A DNA stretch of 7,494 bases from Symbiobacteriaceae bacterium. GTDB taxonomy: Bacteria > Bacillota_E > Symbiobacteriia > Symbiobacteriales > Symbiobacteriaceae. The notes beneath the pieces are model-generated. The model was not told the origin of the DNA. It saw only the letters and a program-made list of their open reading frames with translations, and made no database searches. This document shows, one piece after another, positions 2,636 through 7,494 of this stretch (positions are counted from its first letter, which is position 1; every line of letters begins with the position of its first letter). The translations under genes were made by a program, and so were the position numbers. Where the stretch lies: the NCBI GenBank assembly GCA_027356675.1, contig DAHVXO010000193.1, positions 1 through 7,494 on the forward strand, in the 5' to 3' direction.

Positions 2636-3307
2636 CTACTCGCAGCAACTCTTCCCGGTGCTAACAGGGACAGCGCCATTGTTCGGCATCTGTAGGTCGA
2701 GTGCACGAGCAGGGCTCGTAGCGGGTGCACAGCAATCCTCCTGTGGATGATCCGGCACCGCTATGCAGGAGGCGTCCTGAGCAGATTCGCCGGTCGATTC
2801 CTGACGGGCCGGCCCACAACAATCTACGTGCGGTTCGACGGTGGCTTCGGTCCCAGCGAAACGCCTCGTGCCTTCCTTGACGACCGAGAGCACTACGCCC
2901 AGGCAGCAGGACCCCTGCGGGTTCGTATGCTCGCAGTCGCACCCTTCGTTGTTCAGTCGGGTTTTGATGTCATCGGGCACCGTGCTCTTTCCGGTCCTCC
3001 TGATCTCGTCGTACACCTCTTCGACGGTATGGTTGAAGCAGTAGCAAATGGGCCTCGGACCGGTCGTCTCCTTGACTCCCACCCGTACCTTCAGGTCGGC
3101 CAAGGTAAATACACGCCTGCCGTCTTCGCTGAAGTAGACCACGTCGCAGCCCTGCGCGTCGCAATAGCGGTACGGCCCTTCCGTGATTCGACCCTGACAC
3201 TCGCCATTGACCAGGGAACGAAGTGTCTCGACCTTTACCGCCTTGCCCTTGGTCGCCGACACAGGGCAGATCAGCACTCTCTGCCCCGCGGTGGTTGTTT
3301 CGCTCAT
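2636..3307 (-). CDS. CopZ-like Zn/[2Fe-2S] protein with a cysteine-pair tail
   Basis: This 223-residue protein has 17 cysteines. Residues 1-145 resemble the N-terminal domain of Archaeoglobus CopZ. A likely zinc site is built from Cys14, Cys37, Cys49 and Cys54. Then ICYCF (Cys88, Cys90) and GCDCEHTNPQGSCC (Cys123/125, Cys134/135) have the spacing of a BFD/CopZ [2Fe-2S] centre. The usual HMA metallochaperone domain is absent. In its place, residues 150-223 form a hydrophilic, probably disordered tail with vicinal pairs DCCGPA, DCCAPA and a terminal SCCE. I prefer ATG 3307, with AAGGAGG eleven bases upstream. The in-frame ATG at 3331 overlaps that ribosome site. The gene follows its own regulatory gap and begins the second half of the cluster. 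It is probably a cytoplasmic metal (Hg or organomercury) binding or redox protein. The exact function is inferred from cysteines and neighbours, not known. Confidence 0.8.
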   Translation of the reverse strand: MSETTTAGQRVLICPVSATKGKAVKVETLRSLVNGECQGRITEGPYRYCDAQGCDVVYFSEDGRRVFTLADLKVRVGVKETTGPRPICYCFNHTVEEVYDEIRRTGKSTVPDDIKTRLNNEGCDCEHTNPQGSCCLGVVLSVVKEGTRRFAGTEATVEPHVDCCGPARQESTGESAQDASCIAVPDHPQEDCCAPATSPARALDLQMPNNGAVPVSTGKSCCE

Positions 3308-3351
3308 CTTGTTCGCGTCCTCCTTACACATCGGGAAACCTTAGGGTTGAG

Positions 3352-3614: not shown

Positions 3615-4259
3615 TTACCGAAACAGGCCCCAGAGCTCTCTCCCCCACGCCATGGCTTGTTCCAGGTCTAACAGGAAACCTTCAACCGGACGCCCGGGCT
3701 TCCACTTGTTAAACTGCTCGACCGAGCAGAAGAAAACGATGTCCCCTCACGTGTCGCCACAGACGGATCGCCCAGCTTCAGGCGGCAACACCCAAACCAT
3801 AGCATCTGGATGCGAGGCACGCGCCAAGCGGCCCGATTGAAACTCGAAGCTAAGCGGATCGCCTGAGGAGCCACAGCGACTTTCTACTCGGGCATCAGCA
3901 TCAAGTGCTGCCGGGATGCCAACGGCGTCTAAAGCACACCAGGCGTAGAGTTCAACACCGTTGAGCAGCAACTGGTGCCGAGAGGGAACGACAGAGAGGC
4001 CATTCGCACCCGTGATGGTATCCTCGACCGGCGAAAGCGTGATCAGCCCCAAGGCAGCCATCCTGCCAACGAGATCTACAAGGGATTGTCCCTGAACGTC
4101 AACGCTATCAGCAAGCCGGCTAACCGGAAACGGGTTGCCTCCCCGGATCGATTCAAACGCTACCCGCACGATGGCCATCTCTGCCTCGGACCGCTGGGAC
4201 AGATACTCTCGCCAACGATCGAGCATCGTCTCGTAGTCCGGGCCACTGCAGCAACTCAT
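3615..4259 (-). CDS. merB: Organomercurial lyase MerB with in-frame TGA read as selenocysteine
   Basis: MerB breaks the C-Hg bond of organomercurials to give the hydrocarbon and Hg(II). The reading from ATG 4259 (AGGAGG ten bases upstream) starts MSCCSGP, followed by a helical/winged N-terminal domain. The catalytic domain then shows LYAWCALD, with Cys108 and Asp111 matching Cys96 and Asp99 of the classical enzyme, and ARVESRC with Cys129 matching Cys117. TGA 3747-3749 is codon 171. The distance 108 to 171 equals 96 to 159, so the TGA sits at catalytic Cys159. After it the frame continues as family sequence (GDIVFF, then a C-terminal helix ending ELWGLFR) to TAA 3615-3617. Total length is 214 residues, against 212 for classical MerB. 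A SECIS-like hairpin follows the TGA. A conventional gene caller would stop at 3747 and report 170 residues. The alternative, a nonsense mutation or error, is much less likely given the position and the hairpin. Confidence 0.87.
3714..3729 (-). promoter_or_regulatory. SECIS-like hairpin downstream of the merB TGA
   Basis: On the minus strand CTGCTC (3729-3724) pairs perfectly with GAGCAG (3719-3714) around a GGTC loop (3723-3720). The stem starts 18 bases after the TGA and the loop guanines fall 24-25 bases after it. Bacterial SECIS elements lie inside the coding region, just 3' of the UGA, with loop guanines about 16-37 bases away. The well-studied E. coli fdhF element has the same GGUC loop on a GCA/UGC stem, at about 19 bases. 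A lower helix is weak here (CTT/AAG or GTT/AAC pairs are possible). This should recruit SelB and Sec-tRNA. Confidence 0.75.
3747..3749 (-). other. Recoded UGA (selenocysteine 171 of MerB)
   Basis: Plus-strand TCA reads TGA in the merB frame. It replaces the codon for the second catalytic cysteine (Cys159 of plasmid MerB) with exact residue spacing from Cys108, Asp111 and Cys129, and the frame stays open and MerB-like on both sides. Selenocysteine for catalytic cysteine is the usual substitution seen in selenoproteins. Confidence 0.82.
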
Positions 4260-4476
4260 CCGCCGTGCACCTCCTGTTACTTAGTGAGACCCCACCTGCA
4301 ACCAGGATCATGGGGGCGTCTCACTGTACCCTTAGGATGCTTTGCTTGGCTTGACCTAAGTTCACGCTGGTCAGATACGAAACTCATATAAGCGCATAAA
4401 CCTAGTACCCACTGCCGCACCAACGCCGGCTGTTGCCATCAAGCCCGCCTGGATCGGTGTGCCGCAGCAGATCGGG
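4260..4476 (-). other. Gap between merE and merB
   Basis: This 217-bp gap contains a possible short cysteine-pair reading frame (see 4371-4493), a CTTAGG/CCTAAG inverted repeat (4331-4336 with 4355-4360), an 8-bp inverted repeat (4283-4325) and the AGGAGG ribosome site of merB. I see no convincing minus-strand promoter, so merB is probably read through from the arsR-type promoter. Confidence 0.45.
4283..4325 (-). repeat. Inverted repeat / hairpin in the merB leader
   Basis: AGTGAGAC (4283-4290) is the exact reverse complement of GTCTCACT (4318-4325). The stem can extend by CCC/GGG past one unpaired base, leaving a loop of about 20 bases. It sits 24 bp upstream of the merB start. There is no U-tract, so it is not a standard terminator. 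It could be a leader structure or an operator; no known consensus was recognised. Confidence 0.35.
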
Positions 4477-4493
4477 TCATCGCTTCGCAGCAC
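4371..4493 (-). CDS. Possible small CC-containing peptide overlapping merE 3' end
   Basis: This is a 40-codon reading from GTG 4493, shifted by one base relative to merE and overlapping its last five codons. It reads SDDPICCGTPIQAGLMATAG and continues with a Gly/Ala-rich hydrophobic stretch of membrane-helix type before TGA 4371-4373. The central codons are strongly G in the first position, as in real genes. There is no good ribosome binding site, so it might instead be a merE C-terminal extension reached by a frameshift at the AAG CGA codons, or a relic of a CC-type mercury membrane protein. I do not recognise a family. Confidence 0.25.
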   Translation of the reverse strand: MLRSDDPICCGTPIQAGLMATAGVGAAVGTRFMRLYEFRI

Positions 4494-4692
4494 CTTCCGC
4501 CGTCGTCTGTCGCCACAGAAGGTAGAGGGAAACGGCAAATACCGCCGTTGCAACTCCGTAAACCAGCCCCTGATTCTGCCCAACCCACGCGCCACCAGAT
4601 GTGCCAGCCAGCACTACCAGGAGGAGCGGCAGGTGACAGGGGCATGCGACGAGGGCCAAGGTGCCCAACACGACACTCTTGATTGTTTTCAT
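4477..4692 (-). CDS. merE: Broad-spectrum mercury transporter MerE
   Basis: MerE is a small inner-membrane protein implicated in uptake of both Hg(II) and methylmercury. This 71-residue version has two membrane helices. The signature LVACPCHLPLLLVVLAGTSG (Cys17 and Cys19) in the first helix closely matches the TCPCHLP...AVLAGTTAGA motif of known MerE. The length is slightly below the usual 78 because the N-terminus is short. The start at ATG 4692 is set by GGGGGA seven bases upstream. That ribosome site lies within the end of the arsR-type gene, whose TAA is only two bases before the ATG, so translation is probably coupled. An upstream ATG at 4716 would overlap the regulator and lacks a site. 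MerE supplying organomercury to the cytoplasmic lyase fits the next gene, merB. It is the only mercury transporter recognised in the window. Confidence 0.88.
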   Translation of the reverse strand: MKTIKSVVLGTLALVACPCHLPLLLVVLAGTSGGAWVGQNQGLVYGVATAVFAVSLYLLWRQTTAEGAAKR

Positions 4693-4694
4693 TG

Positions 4695-5057
4695 TTAATC
4701 CCCCATTCTTGTACATGCCCGAATCGCTTCAGCGTTATCGGCCACCAACGCTCGGGCGAGATTAATGAGATCCTTCACCCGAGGGTCAGCCACGCGGTAG
4801 TAGACGTACTTGCCCTCACTGCGCGACGTAACGTAGCCACACCACTTGAGACAGGCGAGCTGGTTGGAGATCTGCCCCTGCGACATCTGGACCGCGTCGA
4901 TCAGCTCCCCAACGTTCATCTCCCCCCGCTCCAGGAGTAGCTCGACGATCTTGAGCCGGGTTGGGTTACCCAAGCCCTGAAAGAACTTCGCGTGAAGGTC
5001 ATACTGACGCTCCGCAAGCTCTAGCGGTTCAGGCGGAGCAACCGGACGTGCAGACAT
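4695..5057 (-). CDS. ArsR/SmtB-family metal sensor, CmtR-like
   Basis: This 120-residue winged-helix repressor has the ArsR/SmtB core LGNPTRLKIVELLLERGEMNVGEL, recognition helix SQGQISNQLACLKWCGYV and wing RSEGKYVYYRV. Cysteines at 69 and 73 in the recognition helix (CLKWC) and at 115 near the C-terminus follow the pattern of CmtR, which binds Cd/Pb through Cys57, Cys61 and Cys102. ArsR-type MerR proteins of actinobacteria regulate mer operons in the same way. It probably represses the cluster until Hg or an organomercurial binds. The start ATG 5057 has GGGAGGG seven bases upstream. The gene is first in the operon behind a good promoter, and its stop is two bases from merE. It belongs to a different family from the MerR activators of proteobacterial mer operons. 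Metal specificity is inferred from context. Confidence 0.92.
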   Translation of the reverse strand: MSARPVAPPEPLELAERQYDLHAKFFQGLGNPTRLKIVELLLERGEMNVGELIDAVQMSQGQISNQLACLKWCGYVTSRSEGKYVYYRVADPRVKDLINLARALVADNAEAIRACTRMGD

Positions 5058-5412: not shown

Positions 5413-5943
5413 TCAAGCCTCCTCCCCGTTGTGTAATCGAGCCTGTCGGTCTTCCGCCGTTTCGGCACGTAGCTGCCAAGTGAGGAGTTCGTCATTAAGC
5501 CGAAGCCATCGTTGTTCTGCATTCACTAGCGCCTCTTCGACAGCGATCAGCGCAGCGACCAGATCGGTTTTTGAGCGACGGCCATACCGCTTTCTCACGG
5601 CATTGAGATCGCGCCCAGGCTTAATTCGGGGAACAGCGGCATGCTGGGTAACCGGGGCGACAGCACAAGAATGCGGGGGCTTCCAAGATCGATGCTTGTT
5701 GTAGTACGCCCTCGCCTCCACATTGGTCAGTATTGCGCTCTCTGAGACGCCTTTGCCTTCCGGGGCCACGCTCGCCGAAATGGCTGCAATGGCGGCGAGT
5801 GAGATGCGCTTATTGACGGCCCGCAAAGCATCGACGGCCGCTTTGACCACAGTGGCCGTGCGCTGTTTTTTGACCTCGTAAACCTTCTCCTTTAGCCACG
5901 CCGGCGCTTCAGTCCGGTCGTGCGGTTCGGATTTGTACGGCAC
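5413..5943 (-). CDS. TnpC/DUF6262-like accessory transposition protein
   Basis: This 176-residue basic protein is encoded immediately after the large tyrosine recombinase and overlaps its end by 35 bases. That matches the tnpB-tnpC arrangement of Tn554-type elements. Residues about 20-85 look like a helix-turn-helix unit: RTATVVKAAVDALRAVNKR, an ISLAAIAAIS helix, then a SESAILTNVEARAYYNKHRS segment. This resembles the TnpC/DUF6262 pattern in which a repeated DNA-binding domain ends with a YxN-like motif. Residues about 125-172 (LVAALIAVEEALVNAEQRWL onward) have a heptad-like coiled-coil pattern, also typical. The start is GTG 5943, with GAGGA close upstream; a later start is possible. TnpC stimulates or orients transposition in Tn554. 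Assignment rests on pattern and position rather than strong sequence identity. Confidence 0.72.
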   Translation of the reverse strand: MPYKSEPHDRTEAPAWLKEKVYEVKKQRTATVVKAAVDALRAVNKRISLAAIAAISASVAPEGKGVSESAILTNVEARAYYNKHRSWKPPHSCAVAPVTQHAAVPRIKPGRDLNAVRKRYGRRSKTDLVAALIAVEEALVNAEQRWLRLNDELLTWQLRAETAEDRQARLHNGEEA

Positions 5944-7494
5944 GTTCCTCGTCCCTTCGGTAGGCGTCTATATCATCCATCTCAACGAGTTCTGCATCGC
6001 AGTCACGCGCAAGCTGCTTCATGCGCTGAGCCTCCGGCAGAAGACCTTCCTGGATGGCGAAGTCCACCTGCATTAGTGCCCACTGTTTGTGGCGCACAAC
6101 TTGCCCCCGCTTGGCTGGATCGGGTACCTTGCCGGCACACCCGACGCAGGCAAACTTTGCGGCGCAGAAGCCGTGGCTTACGCAGTGGCCGCCAACGACC
6201 TCGGCGAGGGTACCTGCCTTACCGCTGGCCTCTTCGTAGAGCTGACGGAGTTCATCAGGAGACCGTTGTACCGCTTTGCCGACGTCAATGTGGGCAGCGA
6301 GGCGGGCCAAGTGTACATCAGCCGCTTCGGCGACGAAGGACTCGGTTGGCTTACTGTAATAATCGGTGACGTCGAGGTTTTTCTGCTTGAGCCACTGACC
6401 CACGATATCTACTGGAATCCGCTCAACCTGGACGGCATGGGTGGCAAAGGCGTGGCGCAACAGATGCGCCTTGATCGCTACCGGGTCTCCTTCTCTGGTT
6501 CTGAACACCATGCCATGCAGCAGCAAACGCATGCACGCAGTGATTCCCATGTCCTTGATATGCTTTCCGTTGAACTGAAACAGGTACGGTGCCTTCTCAA
6601 ACCGATGCGATCGGGTATTGTTTGGGTCATACGCAACCGCAGGCAATTGCTCTCCTGCTTTCAGCCCGTAATGTTCAGCGAGCATCCGAGCCAACTTCAC
6701 CAGAAGCCGCTTGGTCTCTTCTCCGATGAAGTAGGGTTGTGTCCGGTTAGTACGCTCCCCTTTAGGTAGCAGCATAAAGGCATATCTGATTCGCGGGGTC
6801 TGCTCTTTGGCCCCGGGCGGAGCCGGCATTTGTAAACGGACGAAGCAGTCATCCGTCAGCCGTATCTGCAGCAGTTCGTTCATGCGCATACCTGTTGTGG
6901 TGAACAGATCTAGCGCTAACAATCCAACGGTGGCGGCGTTGTACATCTCTTCCACAGGCAAGATTACCCCGGTGGCCCTGCGCTGAGCATCCGCCATAAA
7001 GAATGCCGTGCCGCCCTTGATCCTCCAAGAACCCAACCCGGTAATGCCCGTCGCGAAGGGGGTGGTCAGCGAAGGGCCGTCCTCGCCGTATCCCCATGCG
7101 CGTAACCATGTCTGCTTCTTGCTGATTTCCTCGGGTGTGCCCAGCCGTGGGAGGGTGCCCCATACGCCTTCCTGTAGCAGTTCTGCAAACCACAAGCCCT
7201 CTGACGGGGCATCCCCGCTTAACCGTTCCGCCCTCACGAACTCCAGGAAGAGCTCGTTTCGCTCGTCGACAAATTGGTCCACACCTTCCTTGGCCTGTTT
7301 GTAGGTCGTAGCGCTGTACTTGGATTTATGGCCCATAACCCACGACCGCCGATCCCATACCCGAAAGAAGAGCCGTTCGGTGGGTCCGATGCCCTTATCG
7401 GGAGCCCCGCCTTCGGTGTAGTCGAAGGCGTAAGGCAGCGCACGACGCCCTGACTCCGAGATCACATCCAACGCTTTCCGATACGCCTGGCGGA
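5909..7494 (-). CDS. Tn554 TnpB-type tyrosine recombinase/transposase (5' end outside window)
   Basis: This is a large phage-integrase-family recombinase, open through the right edge. The first available start codon inside the window is TTG 7471, but the frame continues upstream as plausible protein (RQAYRKAL), so the true start lies outside. Counting from 7471, the catalytic residues are Arg196 (GMRMNELLQIRL), His336 and Arg339 (HLLRHAFATH), Trp360 in the third basic/His position (VGQWLKQK) and the nucleophile Tyr371 or Tyr372 (DYYSK). A C-terminal cysteine cluster (Cys430, Cys436, Cys442, Cys445, in GHCVSHGFC...CVGC) is characteristic of TnpB of Tn554-like transposons, and its size also fits. 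It cuts and rejoins DNA at the element ends through a 3'-phosphotyrosine. A tnpA partner would be expected just to the right. All key residues are intact, so the enzyme may be active. Confidence 0.88.
   Translation of the reverse strand, partial: RQAYRKALDVISESGRRALPYAFDYTEGGAPDKGIGPTERLFFRVWDRRSWVMGHKSKYSATTYKQAKEGVDQFVDERNELFLEFVRAERLSGDAPSEGLWFAELLQEGVWGTLPRLGTPEEISKKQTWLRAWGYGEDGPSLTTPFATGITGLGSWRIKGGTAFFMADAQRRATGVILPVEEMYNAATVGLLALDLFTTTGMRMNELLQIRLTDDCFVRLQMPAPPGAKEQTPRIRYAFMLLPKGERTNRTQPYFIGEETKRLLVKLARMLAEHYGLKAGEQLPAVAYDPNNTRSHRFEKAPYLFQFNGKHIKDMGITACMRLLLHGMVFRTREGDPVAIKAHLLRHAFATHAVQVERIPVDIVGQWLKQKNLDVTDYYSKPTESFVAEAADVHLARLAAHIDVGKAVQRSPDELRQLYEEASGKAGTLAEVVGGHCVSHGFCAAKFACVGCAGKVPDPAKRGQVVRHKQWALMQVDFAIQEGLLPEAQRMKQLARDCDAELVEMDDIDAYRRDEERAVQIRTARPD

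Follow-up and report, generated by a model that had tools for sequence, protein, structure and literature searches.

The 7,494-nucleotide stretch of Symbiobacteriaceae DNA analysed here (the window) holds a set of genes on one strand (minus), which encode an ArsR-type regulator, a MerE-like protein, a MerB-like protein, a CopZ-type chaperone, TlpA-like and CcdA-like proteins and MerA. The ArsR/SmtB-type metalloregulator (4695-5057) scored 89.5 bits with NF033788 (cut-off 55), and the MerE-like membrane protein (4477-4716) scored 47.1 bits with PF05052 (cut-off 22.8) and 59.1 bits with the NCBIfam MerE model, under the cut-off of 80. On the other side of merB lie genes for a CopZ-type iron-sulfur metallochaperone of the Cys-Cys form with a Cys-rich tail (2636-3331; NF047645, 113.6 bits, cut-off 100; PF18423), a TlpA/ResA-like thiol-disulfide protein whose true start is uncertain (1957-2730; PF00578, 44.9 bits) and a CcdA/DsbD-like membrane protein with CcdA homologues (1225-1941; PF13386, 25.9 bits, cut-off 24.9). 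The last gene, merA (3-1031), runs off the edge of the window, and a TAA at 495-497 splits it into two pieces. Each piece gives a match to TIGR02053 and PRK13748 and, being only a part, scores under the whole-protein cut-offs of these models. Upstream of the operon, positions 5413-7492 hold an integrase-like gene, ending at a TGA (5909-5911), and next to it a gene for 176 residues that belongs to no known family. The listed plasmid relatives of the former are site-specific integrases (the best 35% identical), and the two genes together suggest a mobile element. A search for repeats around the integrase gave nothing convincing, and a search for a 12-base repeat near the merE side gave a single copy only. 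The whole window had no near match among plasmids and contained no tRNA, while its one Rfam match, to a snoRNA family under the gathering score, was judged to be due to chance.

The merB-like gene (3615-4259, minus strand) starts with an ATG, with a likely ribosome-binding site, recognized by inspection, 8 nt 5' of it (AGGAGGTG, 4268-4275, minus strand). Its frame contains a single in-frame TGA, at codon 171 (3747-3749), preceded by Thr170 and followed by 43 sense codons and a TAA at 3615-3617, so that the product has 214 residues if the TGA is read through and 170 otherwise. MerB binds the organomercurial through Cys96 and Cys159, with Asp99 as the proton donor. The spacing of Cys108 (codon 3936-3938), Asp111 (codon 3927-3929), Cys129 and codon 171 in the window gene is the same as that of Cys96, Asp99, Cys117 and Cys159, residues that we take to be their MerB counterparts. 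When solved structures were aligned to the family profile, Cys159 of PDB chain 3f2g fell on its invariant Cys/Sec column, and the Pfam MerB domain (PF03243; 98.4 bits, cut-off 27) covers residues 88-210, spanning the UGA. An earlier note on this DNA had described a lone TGA at codon 171, lying without gaps on the catalytic Cys159 column, with family sequence resuming beyond it to a full length of 214 residues; frame reading, the residue spacing together with the 3f2g alignment, and the Pfam match, respectively, bear this description out.

A structural model of the product of read-through, in which Cys stood in for the predicted selenocysteine, was built from an alignment of 64 sequences and has a mean pLDDT of 93.7 and a pTM of 0.90. 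Foldseek comparison of the model yielded a TM score of 0.86 with MerB2 (PDB 5c17) and scores of 0.71-0.77 with MerB (PDB 3f2f, 3f2g and 3f0o), at sequence identities from 22% (3f2f) to 31% (5c17). The modelled protein thus has a MerB fold. It is like MerB (PF03243; PDB 3f0o, 3f2f and 1s6l; MerB2 5c17) in Pfam family, fold, length and catalytic spacing and it retains Cys108 and Asp111, but the gene has a UGA in place of Cys159. The scores with the NCBI MerB models NF009710 and NF033555 did not reach the cut-offs (87.7 of 193 and 80.5 of 200 bits, respectively), so the substrate may differ.

Many homologues of this protein are recorded as ending where the UGA lies. An initial protein search yielded seven proteins, including the window's own and P0003, which is 63% identical to it and has the same terminal residue. 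A profile built on the sequence that precedes the UGA matched 316 proteins, the best 120 of which were listed; although cut at the UGA, this profile still admitted longer proteins. Among 124 proteins (P0002-P0125, including that of the window), 96 end directly before the column, 27 pass it with a Cys and one is partial. P0003, P0006 and the other column-ending members are known as proteins alone, and the residue on which they end does not identify the stop codon. The named column-ending members among the matches listed come from Clostridia, Chloroflexota, Anaerolineae, Syntrophales and Rokubacteria, have 160-163 residues and are labelled organomercurial lyase or hypothetical protein.

The codon itself could be read in genomes. 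Over all scans, the UGA was found at this column in the window and in 20 genomes. When a genome collection was scanned, MerB relatives turned up at 20 loci. The column was TGA in five of them (L004, L005, L006, L007 and L014), TGC or TGT in 14, three of which (L008-L010) are apparent copies of a single gene, and TAT, encoding Tyr, in one (L011). Scans of two phyla covered 400 and 398 genomes (798 in all), with matches in 48 and seven of them, respectively. Every MerB-like place with a single TGA had it on the column (17 of 17; 13 and 4 in the two phyla). The profile placed 11 of these TGAs directly and a multiple alignment placed five (L094, L096, L097, L098 and L100), where the profile had a gap beside the TGA; in L099, where the profile match ends slightly short of the column, a shared motif was used. 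Neither of the two places with a single TAG had it on the column, the TAG lying 111 codons upstream in one and 15 downstream in the other. L090, a fragment with four stops, was excluded from the 17 places, and six further places where the match ended before the column lie outside the UGA count; in L081, where the match also ended early, the sequence likewise continues with a TGA at the column. In an alignment of 36 sequences, from which L081, L099 and the Tyr form L011 were left out, the only invariant positions were C108, D111 and column 171, with UGA read as Cys. Close twins differ in this respect, P0041 reading IVGCT-Cys-PQINFF and L084 IVGCT-UGA-PQINFF. Further sampling added no new members: one of 20 genomes matched in the phylum of G004, and one of four and one of three in the classes of G494 and G520, all of them already known, while 36 pattern matches in viral contigs gave no confirmed case. 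Relatives of the protein occur in 546 plasmid records, every one at less than 60% identity.

The scans also brought to light a second, separate MerB-like group in the phylum of G006 (L081, L082 and L092-L100). All 11 members seen carry a UGA on the catalytic column, within the motif NCAWDxxGI ... WWxDIxxT-UGA-xxxLFRSEE, and their hairpins have a GGUC loop. Two members were scanned against the SaoL and MerB models, and both fell far under the cut-offs. Another locus, L101 (L101:5907-6575), has a lone UGA on the column and is otherwise nearer to classical MerB (129 bits, cut-off 193); it sits on a long tree branch apart from the other UGA groups and is without a GGUC or AGUU loop.

These distributions bear on the alternative that merB is a pseudogene, its TGA being either a sequencing error or a nonsense mutation of the ordinary kind in an operon that is decaying. 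The in-frame TAA that interrupts merA further along this operon speaks for it, and the two merA relatives compared are uninterrupted at that position, so the merA TAA may itself be decay or error. However, a TGA at the same column in 20 other genomes, the 96 of 124 homologues that end there and the conservation, under purifying selection in relatives, of the sequence beyond it all argue against a broken merB, which we consider very unlikely. The conserved position of the codon (17 of 17 for TGA, none of two for TAG) indicates that the window TGA is not a chance nonsense codon; the earlier note had thought a chance mutation improbable, and the alignment to homologues that it proposed agrees, the column carrying Cys or UGA with one Tyr exception. 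The merA TAA does not weaken the conserved merB TGA, while it leaves the activity of this particular operon in doubt.

We compared pairs of UGA-containing genes (eight pairs in all, with 39-75 codons after the UGA) and found dN below dS after the UGA, similar to before it. For L006/L014, dN and dS were 0.249 and 1.539 after the UGA and 0.272 and 1.367 before; for L097/L098, 0.161 and 1.687 after and 0.208 and 1.471 before; for L082/L095, 0.278 and 0.853 after and 0.340 and 1.122 before; and for L095/L099, 0.330 and 1.100 after and 0.353 and 0.973 before. L005/L006 have just three changes after the UGA, and in L084/L085, L084/window and L004/window synonymous sites are saturated or nearly so. 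Judged from these substitution patterns, purifying selection acts in the relatives on what follows the UGA. The many database proteins that end at this residue would fit a working stop, giving a 170-residue product that lacks Cys159 and might bind metal instead of acting as a lyase. Selection on the stretch of 39-75 codons that follows the UGA in the tested pairs speaks against such a product, as do the alignment of the post-UGA sequence with MerB to the end of the family and the fact that the protein end would always fall on a catalytic residue, and we regard it as most unlikely.

We also searched the genomes of the relatives for the selenocysteine machinery. SelA was present in all 20 UGA genomes (the five of G004-G008 and 15 more). 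In G004-G008, the five UGA genomes tested for it, selB was over the cut-off in each, and all five have selD, each with its own single in-frame TGA. ARAGORN was used for tRNA-Sec because a tRNA score alone was unspecific, with five of 14 control genomes over the cut-off; it identified a tRNA-Sec with anticodon TCA in four of the five genomes G004-G008 and none in G005. The Cys-type genomes G001-G003 have selA, selB, selD and tRNA-Sec, and selA was also found in 20 of 23 other genomes in which only Cys forms were seen. Since selA is common in genomes with Cys forms too, the machinery does not separate the UGA from the Cys groups. It does bear on the idea that the UGA is read as some other amino acid, by a variant code or by leaky reading. 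The open frame on either side of the codon is what this idea would predict, but the integrase-like gene of the window terminates at a TGA (5909-5911), the UGA genomes carry the Sec machinery with an in-frame TGA in selD itself, and homologues with an amino acid in place of the UGA nearly always have Cys there. Decoding as another residue is therefore extremely improbable.

A SECIS hairpin downstream of the UGA is expected of a bacterial selenoprotein gene. In the window, a SECIS-like hairpin, CUGCUC-GGUC-GAGCAG (3714-3729, minus strand), lies at nt 18-33 past the UGA; it is a signal of the group, not significant for the window alone. Nine duplicated loci were removed before the tests, and related sequences were counted apart. 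A stem of at least five pairs with a loop starting at nt 19-24 past the UGA was found in all 21 UGA tails versus 12 of 42 Cys tails; after shuffling, about 30% of the UGA tails had one. A four-base loop of sequence GGUC or AGUU occurs in 18 of the 21 UGA stems versus none of the 42 Cys stems; the UGA tails without either loop are L007, L086 and L101. GGUC is also the loop of E. coli fdhF. The stems vary by lineage (CUGCUC/GAGCAG in the window, UCCGGC/GCCGGA in L005, L006 and L014, and CUUCC/GGAAG in most of a second group) while position and loop stay constant. The median folding z-score of the tails was -0.65 for UGA and +0.23 for Cys (p = 9e-5). Compared with synonymous recodings, stem length fell below 0.05 in three of the 21 UGA tails and did not single out the window (p = 0.77), and folding energy was lower in the UGA tails as a group, falling below 0.05 in 10 of 21 UGA tails and none of 41 Cys tails. 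For the seven sequences near the window the combined p-value for folding energy was 8e-4, with p = 0.23 for the window alone.

A selenoprotein of the MerB family is already on record in another setting. SaoL is listed as a MerB-like selenoprotein of the SAO system with the motif CU (PMC13188914). SaoL (NF040728) likewise belongs to the MerB family, and in L086, which is SaoL by its score (189 bits, cut-off 140), the UGA lies on the same column, so Sec at this place in a MerB-like protein is already known in kind. The earlier note had left open whether the window cluster is a relative of that system or a separate Sec version of a mer operon. If it belonged to the SAO system, the protein would be an organometal lyase of the SaoL type, acting on something other than organomercury; the shared column in L086 agrees with this, as does an ABC permease beside merB in the relative L103, weakly like SaoP (136.5 bits, cut-off 295). 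In contrast, the window protein scores 33 bits with the SaoL model (cut-off 140), has Thr-Sec (Thr170-UGA171) where SaoL has a Cys-Sec pair, and so does not show the CU motif, and its gene has neighbours that instead resemble a mer operon (ArsR-, MerE- and MerA-like). In a quick tree of 66 sequences, from which the TAG rows and two short or broken ones were dropped, the SaoL rows cluster together and apart from the rest (SH-aLRT 99), although the deeper forks that part SaoL from the window protein are not starred. Membership of the SAO system is thus very unlikely, and of the two options the better fit is a mer operon with a Sec version of its own, the SaoL score and the tree group making an SAO relative the poorer fit. 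In the same tree the UGA requires five changes, at least three of them on well supported branches, compared with 19.2 in shuffles. A single gain followed by two losses may account for three of the changes, and the 23 UGA rows include two (P0003 and P0006) that are proteins known only to end at the column.

Two SaoL-like proteins, L087 (161 bits, cut-off 140) and L088, have Cys on the Sec column. A selA match was present in G713, the genome of L088, and none was found in G586, the genome of L087.

The neighbourhoods of the relatives resemble that of the window to varying degrees. P0003 and P0127, a homologue of the CcdA-like protein (63% identical), probably belong to one operon like that of the window, since each is listed with a 32,372-base contig from the same source; the named relatives of the CcdA-like protein are mixed (Firmicutes, Alicyclobacillus and Actinomycetes) and at most 48% identical. 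L104 has an ArsR gene, an IS1182-type transposase, CopZ and the UGA-merB, and L103 has ArsR, a ferredoxin, the UGA-merB, the ABC permease, a CopZ-type gene and nitrogenase-like genes. CopZ-type iron-sulfur chaperones (NF047645; NF045877, which has Sec forms) are thus neighbours in the window and beside the UGA-merB in L103 and L104, as a likely partner and not a lyase. L007 has CcdA- and TlpA-like genes ahead of its UGA-merB, and the Cys-type relatives L001 and L003 have merA nearby, while no neighbour resembling the window's proteins was found at L004, L005, L006 or L014. Among the seven other UGA genomes nearest the window, MerA over the cut-off was found in G007 only, on a different contig; as six of the seven are without it, a mer role is not general.

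In the CopZ-type gene at L103:2901-3380, the Cys-Cys pair of the window has its counterpart in a TGA, at which the frame stops, and the Cys codon next to it. Judged by its sequence, this gene is a likely candidate for a second selenoprotein of that operon.

Taken together, the UGA on the Cys159 column, the retained Cys108 and Asp111, purifying selection, the Cys twins, selA and the modelled fold point to a Sec-containing MerB, and we think it very probable that the window gene encodes a MerB-family organomercurial lyase whose second catalytic Cys is replaced by a predicted selenocysteine. SelB and tRNA-Sec would insert Sec at the UGA, presumably aided by the downstream hairpin. At neutral pH a selenolate at position 159 would carry a charge, and its hold on Hg would be tighter. 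The organomercurial would be captured by this selenolate together with Cys108, and Asp111 would supply the proton to the carbon. The Hg(II) left between Se and S would then be handed on to MerA or to the operon's CopZ-like or thioredoxin-like partners. The stronger Se-Hg bond may favour capture and cleavage at low substrate levels. Release of Hg(II) could be slow as a consequence, which we infer might explain the adjacent CopZ-like and thioredoxin-like partners. Selones that mimic MerB react faster than their sulfur analogues (PMC11639659).

More broadly, it is likely, with somewhat less assurance than for the window gene itself, that these proteins form a large class of true organomercurial lyases with Sec as the second catalytic residue, found in Bacillota, Chloroflexota, Thermomicrobiota and other phyla, so far recorded as truncated proteins, cleaving by way of Se-Hg chemistry and separate from SaoL, with UGA and Cys swapped at least three times in the MerB tree. 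In a literature search of partial coverage, no paper was found that describes a mer operon with a Sec-containing MerB. The effect of Se on C-Hg cleavage or Hg(II) release has so far been studied with small selone mimics (PMC11639659). A natural selenol at the metal-binding position of MerB would make it testable whether Se speeds C-Hg cleavage or blocks Hg(II) release.

MerB is the best-known enzyme that destroys methylmercury. If the proposed class is real, many merB genes would be recorded as broken although they are complete, and surveys of methylmercury breakdown that require a full-length MerB with Cys159 would miss the Sec forms. In the organisms that carry them, the breakdown of organomercury would be tied to the supply of selenium.
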